From Victivallales bacterium (GTDB lineage: Bacteria > Verrucomicrobiota > Lentisphaeria > Victivallales > UBA1829), in contig JAEEQN010000029.1 of the NCBI GenBank assembly GCA_016285345.1, positions 1-40,711 on the forward strand: a stretch of 40,711 nt of DNA, read 5' to 3'. The position numbers and the translations under genes are program-made. The notes beneath the pieces are model-generated. The model did no database searches. It was not told where the DNA came from and was given only the letters and a program-made list of their open reading frames with translations. Positions 4,335 through 40,583 of the stretch are shown here, in pieces (positions within the stretch are counted from its first letter, which is position 1; every line of letters starts with the position of its first letter).

Positions 4335-5765
4335 ATGAAACTCCGCTTTCTGATATTCCTGATCGTTTCGACCGTATTCGCCTTTCTGCTGGCGAAACAC
4401 GACGTGACGCACGTCGGGATCGAGACGTCGCGGTATTCGACGGTCGAGTCCGTGCTGGAACGCGGCACGTTCGCAATCGACGACAGTTTTTTCACGACCC
4501 CTGACAAGTGCGAACGCAACGGGCATTTTTACGGCGACAAGCCGCCCCTGCTGACGTTCTGCGCGATCGCATGGGGACGTGTGCTGAAGTGTTTCGGCGT
4601 GCGGTATCTGGAGGGGGACTACTGCCGCACGGTTTACCTGACCGGCGTGCTGACATTTATCCTTTCCTGCTTCACCGGATGGTTCTTTTACCTCGGACTG
4701 ATGCGGCGGCCGCGGATGCCGGAAAACTACCGGATCGCGATGTCCGTGCTGTCGGTCGTCTCCACGCTCGTGCTGTCCTATGCCGTCACGCTGAACAATC
4801 ACACGGTATGCGCGGCGGTGCTGATGGGGCTGATCCTGCTGCTGGAACGCTGCGAGGAGACCGGACTGACGCGTCTGCGCGCATTCCTGGCGGGCGTCCT
4901 GACCGGACTGATCCTGAACCTGGAGTTCGTGACGGGCGGCGTGCTGGGGATCGCGGTGTTTATCTTTGTCCTGACTTCGGTTTCGCCGCGCCGGATCGAA
5001 AACGCCCTGATGTACGCGGTCGGCGCGGGCCTGATGATCCTGCTTGAGGCGGGGATGAACATGCTTTCCTACGGTTCGCCTTTGCCGCTGTATCTCTTCA
5101 CGCACAAGCCGTCATTCGCGGAGAAAAACTACCTGACTTATGCCTTTAATATCCTGTTCGGATTCGAGGGATTCTTCCTGTACATGCCGGCTCTGCTGTT
5201 CGCCGGATTCGCCTGCGGCTCGGAACGCATGCGGCACGACCGGGTCTTTGTGTACATGATGGCCTCGACGGTTGCCGCGATTATCCTTTACATCGTCGGT
5301 ACGTCTGACTTCGGCGGCTGGTGCTACGGCTATCGCTTCCTGATCCCGTTCGCGCCTGTGTTGCTGTACTACATCGCGATCTGGTTCGGACGTCCCCGTC
5401 CGCGCCTGAAACGCTGGCACCTCTTCCGCCTGGCGCTGATTTGGGGTGTCGTGTTCTCCATTGTGGGCGTGATGAACCCGTGGAACGCCGGATACGAGGG
5501 ATCGAGCACCCCGAAGAACGCCCTGCCGAATCACTTCAAAAACGGTTTCCTCGCCAACGCGTTCGTGTTCTGCTGGCAGGTCTCGCCGAACTCCGCGCTC
5601 ACGCAGTTCTTCATGGACCGCGTCTACGGGCGGGAATACGCCATGCTGTATCTCCTGATGGAGCTGAACAACCGCAACGACCACGCCGGGCTTCAGCGCG
5701 TCATGGAACAGCTCCGGGGGGATATTGAGGAAGCGGCGGGCATGCCGGAAAACGCGCCGGAATAA
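4335..5765 (+). CDS. Polytopic membrane protein, GT-C (ArnT/PMT-like) glycosyltransferase candidate
   Basis: This 476-aa protein has about ten hydrophobic segments, beginning with LRFLIFLIVSTVFAFLLA at residues 3-20. The first outer loop contains IETSRYSTVESVLERGTF, then NGHFYGDKPPLLTF. This mirrors the loop of ArnT/PMT-type lipid-linked sugar transferases, where D/E-x-x-R-Y and a (D/E)KPPL motif follow the first membrane segment. The C-terminal 35 residues are soluble and acidic. The start at 4335 fits the first membrane segment but lacks a good ribosome site. It could instead be a related membrane protein without transferase activity. Its neighbours do not suggest a pathway. Confidence 0.55.
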   Translation: MKLRFLIFLIVSTVFAFLLAKHDVTHVGIETSRYSTVESVLERGTFAIDDSFFTTPDKCERNGHFYGDKPPLLTFCAIAWGRVLKCFGVRYLEGDYCRTVYLTGVLTFILSCFTGWFFYLGLMRRPRMPENYRIAMSVLSVVSTLVLSYAVTLNNHTVCAAVLMGLILLLERCEETGLTRLRAFLAGVLTGLILNLEFVTGGVLGIAVFIFVLTSVSPRRIENALMYAVGAGLMILLEAGMNMLSYGSPLPLYLFTHKPSFAEKNYLTYAFNILFGFEGFFLYMPALLFAGFACGSERMRHDRVFVYMMASTVAAIILYIVGTSDFGGWCYGYRFLIPFAPVLLYYIAIWFGRPRPRLKRWHLFRLALIWGVVFSIVGVMNPWNAGYEGSSTPKNALPNHFKNGFLANAFVFCWQVSPNSALTQFFMDRVYGREYAMLYLLMELNNRNDHAGLQRVMEQLRGDIEEAAGMPENAPE

Positions 5766-35639: not shown

Positions 35640-37201
35640 ATGAAACACCGAGTTTTTCTAATCGCGATCGCGCTATGCGCCGTGGTCCTGGCTCTGAATA
35701 TTGCAAGTTGCGGAGAAGACGACGCCGCCCCGAAACAGACGGCCCCCGTCAAACAGTCGGAACGTGATACATCGTCCGCGCCGGTACAGTCCGGAGCCCG
35801 TCCGGACCTCAACGATCCCGAACAGAGAACTGGACAGAATGTGAAAGATCATCTCAAAGTATTGTATGAATCCGCCAATATTATTGTTACAATTACGCCA
35901 CCAGATATCAATCAATTCAGTGAAGGTAATATTCAATTGCTTGATAAATCGAAACAAAATAAAAAATTATGGGAAATGGCAATTCCAAGTCAAATGGAAT
36001 CAGGAACAGGGGCCGGGGCTATAAAATCAACGGCGTTTTTTGAAGATAATAAACGCGGATTTTTCTATGCTGCTATTATCCGCAATGAGCTTTTTCCTGA
36101 AATAGTTATTCTTAAAATTGATTCAAAGAATGAAACAGTAAGCGAATCAAAGTTTGCCAGTCCTTTTCTCCCGGACTTGCCATTTAAAAAGATGAAATTG
36201 GATGTGGTCCAAAATATTGTTTTTTTATCTGTCACATATATTGACAATAAGCATCAGGAATCTGCTATAGATATTTCTTCTGGTTTTAACAATATGATGT
36301 TGAATGAGAGACATGGAAAATATCCATTATCTAAAGACGCGGGGGCTGCCGTTAATCCATCGCCTGAAGAAATGGAACGGAGACAAGCTGAGTAATTAGC
36401 GAATCTACCGAAAGATAACATTTTTACCGATGACGAGTTTAAAGCTCTGTTTCCCGAGGTTGAATATGATAAAATTGCCGATTTATACGAGCGTGGCATG
36501 GCTTATGATTGGGATGAAAAATTCTCCGATGCGATGAAATGCTTTGAGCAAGACTCATCATTAAAGTCGAAATTTATGTTGGCAATGTATTACAAAACCG
36601 GCAGACCTGATATTCCAAAAGACTCTGTCAAGGCTAATGCTGTCTTTAATGAGATAATTGGAGATGTCAGTAATCAGTCCGCCCCCACTCCTGAAATGTT
36701 ATGCATAGCCGGACGCGCCTGCATGGAATTTGTTTCAACAGAATTTTTGAAACACAAGAGTATCAAAATAAAGCGAATAACTTCTTCAAAGAATCCATTA
36801 AGCAAGGATATGCTGCTGCCGCTTTTTATCCTCAATATTACATAAGAAACAATGGTAAGTTTCAACCTCGGGAATTACTTGAAATAGCAAACAAAAACAA
36901 CTGTTTGGACACTGAAGTGTTAGCCGCGGGGTTGGCATTATTGCGGAATCCTGCCTTTGAGAATTATCGCAACAAACAAGAAAACCTGTTAACCATCAAA
37001 AAGGGTATTCAAGCACACATCCCATTGGCGGAATATATCATTGGCGAATTATTCTATCTTGATGCCGCAAATCCTGATCTTGCATTAAAGCCGAATCGAG
37101 AACTGGCGTTATTCTGGATGAAACGTGCCGCGAATCATGGAGAAGCGGATGCCATAGAGCTTTTACGGCAAAATCCCACTTTAAGGCCATTTAACCGATG
37201 A
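35640..37201 (+). pseudogene. Broken lipoprotein gene with Sel1-like repeats (in-frame stop plus frameshift)
   Basis: The first part (35640-36395, 251 aa) begins MKHRVFLIAIALCAVVLALN with lipobox IASC and a GGAGG ribosome site. Reading on in the same frame past TAA at 36393-36395 gives LANLPKDNIFTDDEFKALF and a further 100 codons. The frame is then lost near a run of five T residues (36744-36748). Adding one T would join it to the frame ending at 37201, which contains YQNKANNFFKESIKQGYAAA and a C-terminal Sel1-like repeat (LALFWMKRAANHGEADAIEL). A CAA to TAA change would explain the stop. The intact protein would be about 520 aa. GC content falls from 65% (35761-35820) to 27% (35941-36000). 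Two sequencing errors are an alternative, but two independent lesions favour decay. Confidence 0.75.
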
Positions 37202-37350
37202 CGAACGTAATTTTCAACAGCGGCTTTATCGGCTTTTTGATTTGCGTGTTGCTCTTTGCTGTCGCACGGCGGCACTGGCTATCGCTATCCGCTGTGTGTG
37301 GGTGTTGCATAAAACTATATTTGCGATGGCGGAATTCAAAGAAAAGCTGA
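37198..37350 (+). CDS. Possible 50-aa membrane peptide coupled to the broken gene
   Basis: ATG 37198 overlaps the stop of the preceding frame as ATGA. The peptide MTNVIFNSGFIGFLICVLLF continues AVARRHWLSLSAVCG and ends at 37350. It has one hydrophobic segment and a basic C terminus. No strong ribosome site is present. It may be a real small membrane protein or chance. Confidence 0.2.
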   Translation: MTNVIFNSGFIGFLICVLLFAVARRHWLSLSAVCGCCIKLYLRWRNSKKS

Positions 37351-37574
37351 TTCCGTCGGCTCTGCCGAAGGAACTTCCGACGGTGCCGGCGAAGTTCCTG
37401 ACGGGAGCCTGCATGACGCGCTCGGAGGACCTGTGGGTCACGGCAGAGGCGGGCGGCGTCTGGAACGCGCCGAACAGAAGACTGAGCGTATTCGGGAACA
37501 GTAGAAGAAGCTTTGCCGCTGATATCGGCTTCCGGCAGCGAAAAAACGGCGATGACGTTCCGAAAACGACTTGA
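37326..37574 (+). pseudogene. Probable gene remnant
   Basis: An open stretch in the phase of 37326 reads FKEKLIPSALPKELPTVPAK, then LTGACMTRSEDLWVTAEAGG. GC content here returns to the genome level. DLWVTAEAGGVWN is reminiscent of one blade of a beta-propeller protein. It has no ribosome site, no complete domain, and runs into low-quality sequence after 37452. I regard it as debris from a lost gene. Confidence 0.25.
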
Positions 37575-37599
37575 CTTTTTCCTGTTCCGGTCGTAAATT
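37571..37599 (+). promoter_or_regulatory. Promoter of the MNT/HEPN toxin-antitoxin operon
   Basis: TTGACT (37571-37576), a 17-bp spacer and TAAATT (37594-37599) lie about 45 nt before the antitoxin start. An AGGGA ribosome site follows near 37634. The operon therefore has its own promoter. Confidence 0.6.
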
Positions 37600-37644
37600 A
37601 TAGACAATGAATCGAGAACGCGTTTTACACAGGGAATCCGAATC

Positions 37645-37935
37645 ATGTGCCAACTCGACAGACTGCGCAGTTTAAGAAGCGAGATCTACGAGATCGCCAG
37701 AAAGCACAAGGCCGCCAAGGTCTATGTGTTCGGTTCCTGCGCCCGTAAGGAAGAGACCCCCGGCAGCGACGTCGACTTCCTCGTTGAATTGCAAAACGGT
37801 GCCTCTTTGTTCGACCTGATGGATATGCAGGACGAATACGAATCTCTTCTGAAATGCAAGGTCGATGTCGTCTCAAGGCGCGGACTCAATCCGTATCTTC
37901 GCGACGATGTGCTCAAAGAGGCCGTCGCTTTATGA
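37645..37935 (+). CDS. Minimal nucleotidyltransferase, MntA-type antitoxin
   Basis: This 96-aa MNT-fold protein has an intact GS-x10-D-x-D motif: G30-S31, then D42-V-D44 (GSCARKEETPGSDVD), and a third acidic residue, D74, in KVDVV. In characterised MntA-HepT (type VII) pairs the nucleotidyltransferase silences the HEPN toxin by adding AMP to a Tyr of its R-x4-H-x-Y motif. All three catalytic Asp are present, so it is predicted active. The stop overlaps the start of the HEPN gene as ATGA, giving tight coupling with antitoxin first. Its first half is clearly paralogous to the C-terminal domain of the next gene product. Confidence 0.9.
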   Translation: MCQLDRLRSLRSEIYEIARKHKAAKVYVFGSCARKEETPGSDVDFLVELQNGASLFDLMDMQDEYESLLKCKVDVVSRRGLNPYLRDDVLKEAVAL

Positions 37936-38573
37936 AAAAGCACAACGACGCATTCTTTCTTCTGAACATCGTCGATGCTTTGTCCGACATCCTGTTTTAT
38001 ACTTCCTGCTCAGAAGAACAGTTCCTGATCGAGATCATGCGTCAGGATGCGGTTGCCCGGAAATTCGAGAATCTGGGTGAGTCCGTAAAGAATCTTTCCG
38101 AAGGTTTCCGTGCGGATCATCCGCAGATACCATGGTCTCACATCGCGCGATTCCGGGATATCCTGTCGCATCACTATTTCGGCGTTGACCAGAAAGCCGT
38201 CTGGAATATCGCCCGGACAGATGCGAAAGAAGCATATCAGGCCATCACGCTTCTTGAAGAGCATGTCAACGCTTTGAATGAATTCAACCGGAAACAGAGG
38301 GAAAAGGTCGAAGAACTGCGTCAACGGAAAAACGAGATTTACGAAATCGCCCACAGACACAAGGCAACCAAACTGTATGTGTTCGGTTCCAGTTCAAGAC
38401 AAAACGACCTGAACTTCGTCGCGGAGTTCAAAGATGCGTCTTTGCTTGATCTCGGCGCGCTGACAAACGATCTGGAAGCGTTCCTTGACCGGAAGATTGC
38501 CGTGTTTCCTCTTCAGTCTTTGAAGGATTATTCGTTTGGCGACCGTATCCGCAAGGAAATGGAACTTCTGTAA
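37932..38573 (+). CDS. HEPN (HepT-type) toxin fused to a degenerate MNT domain
   Basis: This 213-aa protein has two parts. Residues 1-120 are a HEPN domain of the DUF86/HepT type, with helices FLLNIVDALSDILFYTSC and AVARKFENLGESVKNLSEGF. Its RNase motif is R75-DILS-H80-H81-Y82, so R-x4-H-x-Y is intact with Tyr82 as the expected AMP acceptor. Residues about 127-213 repeat the MNT fold: NEIYEIAHRHKATKLYVFGS matches SEIYEIARKHKAAKVYVFGS of the upstream protein. The loop after G152-S153 is five residues shorter, the D-x-D is D159-L-N161, and the third Asp is Ala190 (KIAVF). The domain should not transfer nucleotides. ATG 37932 is set by the ATGA overlap. HepT toxins are normally about 110-150 aa, so the extension is unusual. 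Confidence 0.88.
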   Translation: MKKHNDAFFLLNIVDALSDILFYTSCSEEQFLIEIMRQDAVARKFENLGESVKNLSEGFRADHPQIPWSHIARFRDILSHHYFGVDQKAVWNIARTDAKEAYQAITLLEEHVNALNEFNRKQREKVEELRQRKNEIYEIAHRHKATKLYVFGSSSRQNDLNFVAEFKDASLLDLGALTNDLEAFLDRKIAVFPLQSLKDYSFGDRIRKEMELL

Positions 38574-38861: not shown

Positions 38862-40583
38862 ATGAACAAGATCACGGACTGGTACGGCTCCAAGGGGCTG
38901 ACCATGGGCATCGCCGCCGACCACGGCGGATTCGAACTGAAAGCGAAACTCATCCCGTTCCTCGAAGGCAAGGGATTCACCGTGAAGGACTTCGGCCCCA
39001 CGGTGTATGATGCCGGGGACGATTACTCGGTGTTCGGATCCGCGATGGCGAAGGCCGTCTCCAAGGGCGAAATCCAGCTTGGCATCCTGCTCTGCCGCAG
39101 CGGCGCGGGCATGGTCATCACGGCCGACCGTTTCCACGGCGTCCGCGCCGTCGTCGCGTTCTGCAAGGAGAACACCAAGGCCAGCCGCGAGCACAACTGT
39201 TCGAACGTGCTGGTCATCCCCGCCGACTACATGGACGAGGCGAAGATGAAGGAGCTCATCGAGACCTGGCTCTCCACCCCGTTCTCCGGCGACGCCCGCC
39301 ACGTGCGCCGTCTGGAAATCCTCGAAAAGCGCACCTACGACGACATCGCGGCGGTCCGTTCCGCCGACCCGGAGATCGCCGCGCTGATCGACAAGGAAGC
39401 CGACCGCCAGTTCAACGGCATCGAGCTCATCGCCTCCGAAAACTTCACGAGCACGGCCGTCCGCGCCGCCCAGGGCTCCGTCCTGACCAACAAGTACGCC
39501 GAAGGCTATCCGCGCAAGCGCTACTACAACGGCTGCGAATTCGTCGACGAGGTGGAACAGCTCGCGATCGACCGCGCGAAGGAACTCTTCGGCGCCGAAG
39601 CCGCGAACGTGCAGCCCCACGCGGGCAGCCAGGCGAACATGGCGGTGTATTTCGCGCTGCTGAACCCCGGCGACACCGTTCTCTCCATGAGCCTCGACCA
39701 CGGCGGCCACCTCACGCACGGCCATCCGATGAATTTCAGCGGCAACCTCTTCCACATCGTGCCCTACGGCGTCTCCGCCGAGACCGAGCGCCTCGACTAC
39801 GACGAGATCGAACGCCTCGCCATGGAGCACAAGCCCCGCATGATCCTCGCCGGCGCGTCCGCCTATCCGCGCGCCATCGACTTCGCCCGTCTGCGCCAGA
39901 TCGCCGACAAGGCGAACGCCTTCCTCTTCGTCGACATGGCGCACATCGCCGGCTTGGTCGCCGCCGGCCTGCACCAGAACCCGGTCCCGTACTGCGACGT
40001 CGTCACCACCACCACGCACAAGACCCTCCGCGGCCCGCGTTCCGGCCTCATCCTCTGCAAGGAAAAATACCTCAAGGCGATCAACTCCAAAGTCTTCCCC
40101 GGCCTCCAGGGCGGCCCGCTCATGCACGTGATCGCCGCGAAGGCCATCTGCTTCAAGGAAGCGATGTCCCCCGAATTCAAGGCGTACCAGCAGCAGATTG
40201 TGAAGAACGCCTCCACGCTCGCCGCCGCGCTCGCCGACAAGGGATTCCGCATCGTTTCCGGCGGCACCGACAACCACCTGATGCTCGTCGACCTGCGTCC
40301 GCGCCACGCCACCGGCAAGGAGATCGCCACCGCCCTCGACAAGGCCGCGATCACGGTCAACAAGAACATGATCCCGTTCGACCCCGAAAAGCCGTTCGTC
40401 ACCAGCGGCATCCGCATCGGCACGCCCGCCGTCACCACGCGCGGCATGAAGGAGCCGGAAATGCTCCGCATCGCCGACTTCATCGACCGCGCGGCCGCCG
40501 CGAAGGACGATGACGCCGCGCTCGCCGCCATCCGCGCCGAGGTGATCGACTTCTGCGCCGACTTCCCGATGCCGGAATTCTGA
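38862..40583 (+). CDS. Fused ribose-5-phosphate isomerase B and serine hydroxymethyltransferase
   Basis: The single 573-aa frame has two enzymes. Residues 1-155 are Rpi[33 protein letters not shown] with Cys78 at the usual catalytic position, and [16 protein letters not shown]. RpiB interconverts ribose 5-phosphate and ribulose 5-phosphate. Residues about 160-573 are Gly[65 protein letters not shown] with the PLP Lys387, and [13 protein letters not shown]. GlyA converts serine and tetrahydrofolate to glycine and methylene-tetrahydrofolate. There is no internal stop, start signal or frame change at the joint. AAGGAA precedes the ATG. serS follows 22 nt later, so serine metabolism and serine charging are linked. 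Confidence 0.92.

Follow-up and report, generated by a model that had tools for sequence, protein, structure and literature searches.

The window, by which we mean the whole 40,711-nt stretch of Victivallales bacterium DNA analysed here, carries an operon that by its sequence is a variant of the HepT/MntA (type VII) kind of toxin–antitoxin system, restricted so far to one genus, in which the HEPN toxin bears a pseudo-antitoxin domain. The antitoxin itself, an MNT protein, is encoded separately and is intact. The most likely role of the dead MNT domain, proposed here with some reserve, is to dock on and hold the toxin, with the free MNT protein AMPylating it separately. The coordinates of the parts are collected in Table 1.

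Table 1. Features of the MNT/HEPN operon, in window coordinates.
Feature	Position	Strand	Remarks
Promoter-like site TTGACT-17-TAAATT	37571..37599	+	Weak by itself: 1 found versus a mean of 1.3 in shuffles
MNT antitoxin gene, 96 aa	37645..37935	+	Intact GS-x10-DVD and D74; PF01909, 7.4e-16; type I lineage
Fused toxin gene, 213 aa (HEPN and non-catalytic MNT domain)	37932..38573	+	PF01934, 1.9e-20
HEPN domain, residues 1-115	37932..38276	+	R75-x4-H80-x-Y82 intact
Connecting helix, about residues 116-131	38277..38324	+	Continuous helix 109-131 in the predicted model
Pseudo-MNT domain, residues 124-213	38301..38570	+	Groups with type II MNT lineage
Decayed catalytic loop G152-S-x5-D159-L-N161	38385..38414	+	Five residues missing; second Asp is Asn
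Helix alpha2 of pseudo-MNT, residues 171-185	38442..38486	+	Counterpart of the HEPN-docking helix in solved MNTs
Ala190 codon, position of third catalytic Asp	38499..38501	+	

An earlier note on this DNA had described an intact MNT protein overlapping a HEPN protein with an intact motif and a second MNT-like part, and this arrangement was confirmed by the open reading frames and by the matches to PF01909 and PF01934. The two genes are joined by an ATGA overlap, the MNT antitoxin gene lying upstream. A free intact MNT precedes the fused toxin at all seven distinct loci for which DNA was available (the window, the phage copy, G000:C28, G002, G005, G009, and G011). Comparison of upstream sequences by eye showed that a TAAATTATAG-like stretch recurs ahead of many modules in the genus. 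The gene upstream of the operon (36498-37201) consists of several overlapping ORFs in the window and is part of a single 658-aa ORF in the sister species G008 (L155 4580-6556). On the other side, the operon is adjoined by a 573-aa ORF (38862-40583), which we take to be RpiB fused to serine hydroxymethyltransferase. Protein P0085 shares its start with this ORF, carries PF02502, and joins an RpiB-like N-terminus to part of the pseudo-MNT at a common VFGS; it is probably a chimera that assembly made from two parts of this locus.

Relatives with the same HEPN–MNT order, for which the earlier note had proposed a search, proved to be numerous. A protein search with the fused toxin yielded 24 rows including the query, and a profile search yielded 84, comprising 49 clusters with at least 75 residues of the C-terminal domain, eight with part of it, and 27 with none. 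The fused proteins were divided into group A (213 aa, including that of the window), group B (218 aa), group C (219 aa, including that of a second fused gene, G000:C28, which the same genome carries at another place and which is 43% identical), and three singletons; these group names, like the MNT types I and II used below, were coined in this analysis. The HEPN residues R75, H80, and Y82 are invariant across the 20 rows of the group A alignment (A1). Among named genomes, four of 80 loci (kept from 99 confirmed ones) are fused: L061, L062, L063, and L065. Two of them are labelled as sheep-rumen Lentisphaeria and two as 'uncultured bacterium' RUG isolates. To judge from its genus mates, the bacterium of the window is likely from the rumen. 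Six further loci (L064, L067, L069, L076, L106, and L123) match both toxin parts yet have a separate MNT ORF. A phylum-wide survey, which scored the best candidates per genome (seven in most) at E ≤ 1e-15, placed the fusion in three of 387 genomes, only in the genus of the window, as judged by the range matched. In the set of 100 related genomes, fusions were present in five, all among the 13 genomes of that genus. Within this genus the fusion is frequent, and none was found outside it in the searched genomes; it is therefore recurrent and not unique. A HepT-like protein with a C-terminal extension of about 70-90 residues, not MNT-like by eye, was seen in genome G029 (L015/L176, 1501-2139) and in P0071.

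The last 90 residues of the toxin match MNT proteins by sequence and model as an MNT without catalytic residues. A Pfam scan of the C-terminal domain on its own gave no match, and the MNT-fold assignment therefore rests on the match to the neighbouring MNT, on PADLOC profiles, and on predicted structure. The PADLOC profile PDC-S09 matches both the free MNT (2.3e-33) and the dead domain (1.2e-12). The predicted model of the C-terminal domain matches solved MNT structures, and both halves of the toxin match the partners of the same solved HEPN–MNT complexes; a sequence search of the fused toxin against the sequences of solved structures returned no matches. The dead domain of group C has a well-modelled fold (pLDDT 87.2), and the fused-toxin models reached pTM values of 0.68 and 0.62, which do not fix the relative placement of the two domains. 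The second MNT fold that the earlier note had read from the letters is thus supported by the predicted structure and the PADLOC matches, though not by Pfam.

The loss of catalytic residues from this domain, also claimed before, is nearly general. Two kinds of standalone MNT, type I and type II, can be told apart in the lineage, and the free antitoxin of the window belongs to type I. The catalytic set (G30/S31/D42/D44/D74) is complete in 29 of 29 of these proteins, which were collected by similarity to the live antitoxin, so that decayed ones may be missed. They were drawn from 65 standalone MNT ORFs with E ≤ 1e-12 to the antitoxin of the window; the other 36, from other organisms, were left out, five of them forming the outgroup of the MNT tree. 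Among 54 fused entries with a full C-terminal domain (49 protein clusters and five genomic copies, two sets that may overlap), the catalytic set is complete in one, P0028, and incomplete in 53. In the window, GS-x5-DLN and Ala190 stand in place of the motif of an active MNT. Group A has lost D44 and D74 and has the loop deletion in 19 of 19 members. Group B has lost the Ser and D74 and has Glu for D44 (5/5); in Shewanella oneidensis, according to the available text of PMC7641770, changing Asp to Glu at both motif Asp abolishes modification. In group C, D74 is lost in 27/27, and Ser is replaced by Glu in 26/27 and by Gly in the remaining one. Because group A decayed through a loop deletion and groups B and C through other replacements, at least two independent catalytic losses are likely from the aligned residues. 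The apparently live fused MNT of P0028 suggests that the fusion did not start out non-catalytic. Group A has a conserved loop of its own (QNDLNF in most members), keeps the first Asp in 19/19, and keeps GS in 12/19, as might be expected if the domain had been put to a new use apart from docking, such as sensing a trigger by binding a nucleotide, RNA, or a phage product. We consider such a use very unlikely, given that GS has become GA in the other 7/19, that the Ser is lost throughout groups B and C, and that no ligand signature was found in the domain.

The dead domain is under purifying selection. By the Nei–Gojobori method, its dN/dS between the window and the phage copy, where 41 differences are synonymous and 26 non-synonymous, is 0.074; the 10 pairs compared within group C give 0.086-0.158, and the values for the comparison parts are 0.027-0.087 (HEPN) and 0.050-0.105 (free MNT); synonymous distances often exceed 1, which makes single values rough, and all lie far below 1. 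It is scarcely credible that the domain is a relic, either an unused, drifting read-through tail or an assembly artefact. Drift would agree with the different ways in which the groups lost their catalytic residues, with truncated or frame-broken copies, and with the somewhat faster change of the group C domain (faster than HEPN in 10/10 pairs and than the free MNT in 8/10). Against it stand the dN/dS values of 0.07-0.16, the length of exactly 213 aa in 13 of the 19 group A relatives (P0003-P0021), the well-modelled fold of group C, and the same architecture in five genomes and on phage contigs. A fusion by chance or through faulty assembly was also rejected, on the basis of the relatives, the alignment, and dN/dS. 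As for the altered copies, the group C toxin of G005:C3 (L152 9438-10386) has its N-terminal part in another frame, and the internal Met with which the remainder of that toxin begins is also the start of the metagenomic proteins P0059 and P0060. In P0019 and P0021, the group A HEPN is followed by another tail instead of the pseudo-MNT; both are single-member clusters on contigs shorter than 0.9 kb, in which truncation and assembly error are indistinguishable.

Conservation was compared by region. Between live type I and type II MNTs, the catalytic loop with strand b2 is 71% alike and helix alpha2 37%. Against live MNTs, the corresponding values are 26% and 39% for group A, 31% and 26% for group B, and 33% and 34% for group C. 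Between dead domains, the loop and alpha2 are 6% and 28% identical for A–B and 17% and 39% for A–C, where strand b1 (49%) exceeds alpha2; for B–C, they are 44% and 40%, with 53% at the C-terminus, and the pattern is absent. On these identities, alpha2 is at or near the live level in groups A and C and lower in B, and the loop has lost over half of its identity in each of the groups. Selection does not account for the whole contrast, because recombination of the 5' halves of live MNTs inflates the loop identity of 71%. The conservation of alpha2 supports docking over catalysis as what the aligned sequences have kept. Resemblance of alpha2 to that of live MNTs after the loss of catalysis might also be expected of a competitor, a domain that takes the docking site of the free MNT, slows AMPylation, and eases release of the toxin, for example in phage infection; the match of the free MNT to a candidate-defence profile (PDC-S09) and the carriage of the operon by phages also fit. 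A toxin that hinders its own antidote must stay controllable, however, and the sequence bears no sign of how; we rate competition as distinctly unlikely.

According to the docking proposal, the dead MNT domain would be a tethered, non-catalytic module holding the toxin in an inhibited, MNT-like complex. By analogy with solved relatives, the HEPN domain is a predicted ribonuclease toxin, the dead domain would dock through alpha2, perhaps on a HEPN subunit of its own chain or on one next to it, and the separate live MNT would switch the toxin off by AMPylating Tyr82. In the available text of PMC11586414, the alpha2–HEPN interface is common to all three solved HEPN–MNT complexes, the alpha4 helix adds affinity in other systems, and an MNT without alpha4 modifies inefficiently, presumably owing to weaker binding. 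Judging from their length (90-96 residues), both the free antitoxin and the dead domain are probably without alpha4. An attached non-enzymatic partner could be useful here precisely because the 96-aa antitoxin probably lacks the helix that strengthens binding elsewhere: it would keep the HEPN oligomer ready for modification and would prevent free, active HEPN from appearing when antitoxin runs low. It is unlikely that the domain is instead a built-in partial antidote, which would cover the active-site cleft of the HEPN dimer it belongs to and lower toxicity without the free MNT. It is conserved and in cis, and alpha4 of MNTs elsewhere enters and blocks the HEPN cleft (PMC11586414, available text), but it ends about where the free MNT does and so probably shares the absence of alpha4; moreover, the intact free MNT kept at 7/7 loci would be needless beside a sufficient antidote. 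Holding, docking, and partial antidote are not separable by sequence, and docking or holding fits the conservation pattern best.

The origin of the fused gene was addressed by phylogeny, identity, and C-terminal length. In the MNT tree, the group A dead domain and the fused MNT of P0028 (a long branch whose exact place is unsure) are placed together with type II (98/99 support). Over its 3' half, the group A domain shares 37% identity with type II and 26% with type I. After V73, 24 residues follow in group A (19/19) and P0028, as in 14 of 16 type II proteins, and 23 in groups B and C, P0029, and P0052, as in 13 of 13 of type I. Since the tree, the 3' identity, and the C-terminal length all indicate type II, the group A dead domain did not arise as a copy of the antitoxin beside it, and the earlier idea of a second copy of the cognate antitoxin has to be given up for this group, where the domain belongs to the other MNT lineage. 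The accompanying idea of an origin from two tandem MNT–HEPN modules gained support from genome G024, of another genus of the family, in which MNT-I, HEPN-I, MNT-II, and HEPN-II lie in tandem (L154, G024:C35, 1505-2923), with MNT-II beginning 94 bases after HEPN-I and HEPN-II broken between two frames. From such an order, HEPN-I could have fused to MNT-II, with loss of HEPN-II, to give the fused gene. The first 45 residues of the two MNTs of this tandem are identical, pointing to gene conversion between them. A single clade of fusions was not rejected either in the HEPN tree (p-AU 0.704; 11 fragments or distant rows left out) or in the MNT tree (p-AU 0.237); the C-terminal length hints at two fusions, though the trees allow one.

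Compared with the class I HEPN/MNT (type VII) systems HepT/MntA of Shewanella oneidensis and Aphanizomenon flos-aquae, the operon has the same gene order (MNT first, with the HEPN gene adjoining), the same GSX10DXD and RX4HXY motifs, and the same Pfam domains, PF01909 and PF01934, as expected of class I. HepT, however, is a single HEPN domain, whereas here a dead MNT domain is added, and the free MNT is only 96 aa long. The NCBIfam models NF047751 (HepT_toxin) and NF047752 (MntA_antitoxin) gave 30.5 and 48.8 bits, below the 60-bit cut-off, and by these scores the pair is kin of the two equivalogs rather than a member. The Legionella pneumophila HEPN–MNT pair (PMC11586414; PDB 8xeh, 8xeo) likewise has a short MNT without alpha4 and docks by alpha2, as would be the case here; it differs in that its antitoxin binds HEPN tetramers 1:4 and in that the available text describes no fusion. 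The MNT–HEPN fusions of Anantharaman et al. 2013 (PMC3710099) are also single polypeptides, with DUF86 'occasionally fused to MNT', but in the available text their HEPN part typically lacks the RNase residues, whereas here HEPN is intact and MNT is dead. The present fusion inverts the reported route, in which the fused HEPN part dies. With PADLOC PDC-S09, a candidate defence system, the likeness lies in the profile matches of the free MNT and the dead domain, and a role in defence is putative here. An intact HEPN fused to a dead MNT was not described in the literature searched, which included the available text of PMC7641770, PMC11586414, PMC3710099, and PMC2701414, with most subscription papers falling outside it. 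In the available text of PMC7641770 and PMC11586414, the shares of binding and AMPylation in HEPN/MNT control are not settled; a toxin with its dead MNT in cis and its live MNT in trans, together with the live-looking fused P0028, offers a natural separation of the two.

Besides its place on the chromosome, the operon also occurs as phage cargo. Six IMG/VR contigs, of which five are nearly identical where compared and one is 95% identical, carry it with a toxin 82% and an antitoxin 90% identical to those of the window, on the strand opposite to the phage genes. In L142, genes for the tape measure, the major tail protein, head decoration, and the major head/protease are among them. The operon there has the major tail protein gene on one side and, on the other, a gene that matches no PHROG (4399-4890) and that we guess from its place to be tail-chaperone-like. 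The cargo status follows from the gap between these two genes, measured between matched ends: 1040 bases in L142 and, around an unfused MNT/HEPN pair, 783 in G007:C79, versus 11 (G009:C193), 11 (G005:C12), 38 (G030:C117), 43 (G030:C149), 93 (G007:C78), and 101 (G030:C79) bases in related clusters. No close relatives of P0035 (group C) or P0022 (group B) were found on viral contigs, and the INPHARED phage records gave three weak matches (25.6-35.8% identity), none spanning 80% of the query.

At the same chromosomal place, the sister species G008 has a type II MNT/HEPN pair. The flanks are 97% identical from 38637 onward and 93% upstream (36357-37221), with one extra gene between in G008. Homology is also present at 37507-37790 (93%; L155 7980-8262), taking in the promoter region as well as the first half of the MNT gene; it stops within the antitoxin gene and returns about 60 bases past the toxin stop. 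Modules appear to be swapped as cassettes, with a putative crossover in the conserved 5' half of the antitoxin gene. A broader scenario is possible, if doubtful: a HEPN lineage would have taken in an antitoxin of foreign lineage, the enzyme would have been killed at least twice and the docking helix kept, leaving two layers of control, a permanent non-enzymatic hold by the attached domain and an enzymatic lock by the separate MNT, and phages would have spread the module between their tail genes.

A second cargo site was observed directly before the tape measure gene in six tail clusters: L162 (G009), L163 (G005), L164 (G007), L165 (G004), L167 (G007), and L148 (G030). In L162 and L164 the site holds PIN_3 and RelB (Pfam); L163 has similar ORFs and L165 a comparable PIN ORF, whereas L167 has a HigB-like gene with an HTH gene and L148 an MNT/HEPN pair. 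The phage tail cluster gives the impression of a landing site for toxin–antitoxin pairs. In L148 (G030:C79, 3563-5855), some 2.3 kb of sequence interrupts the major tail protein gene and contains a 535-aa ORF, presumably a group II intron reverse transcriptase.
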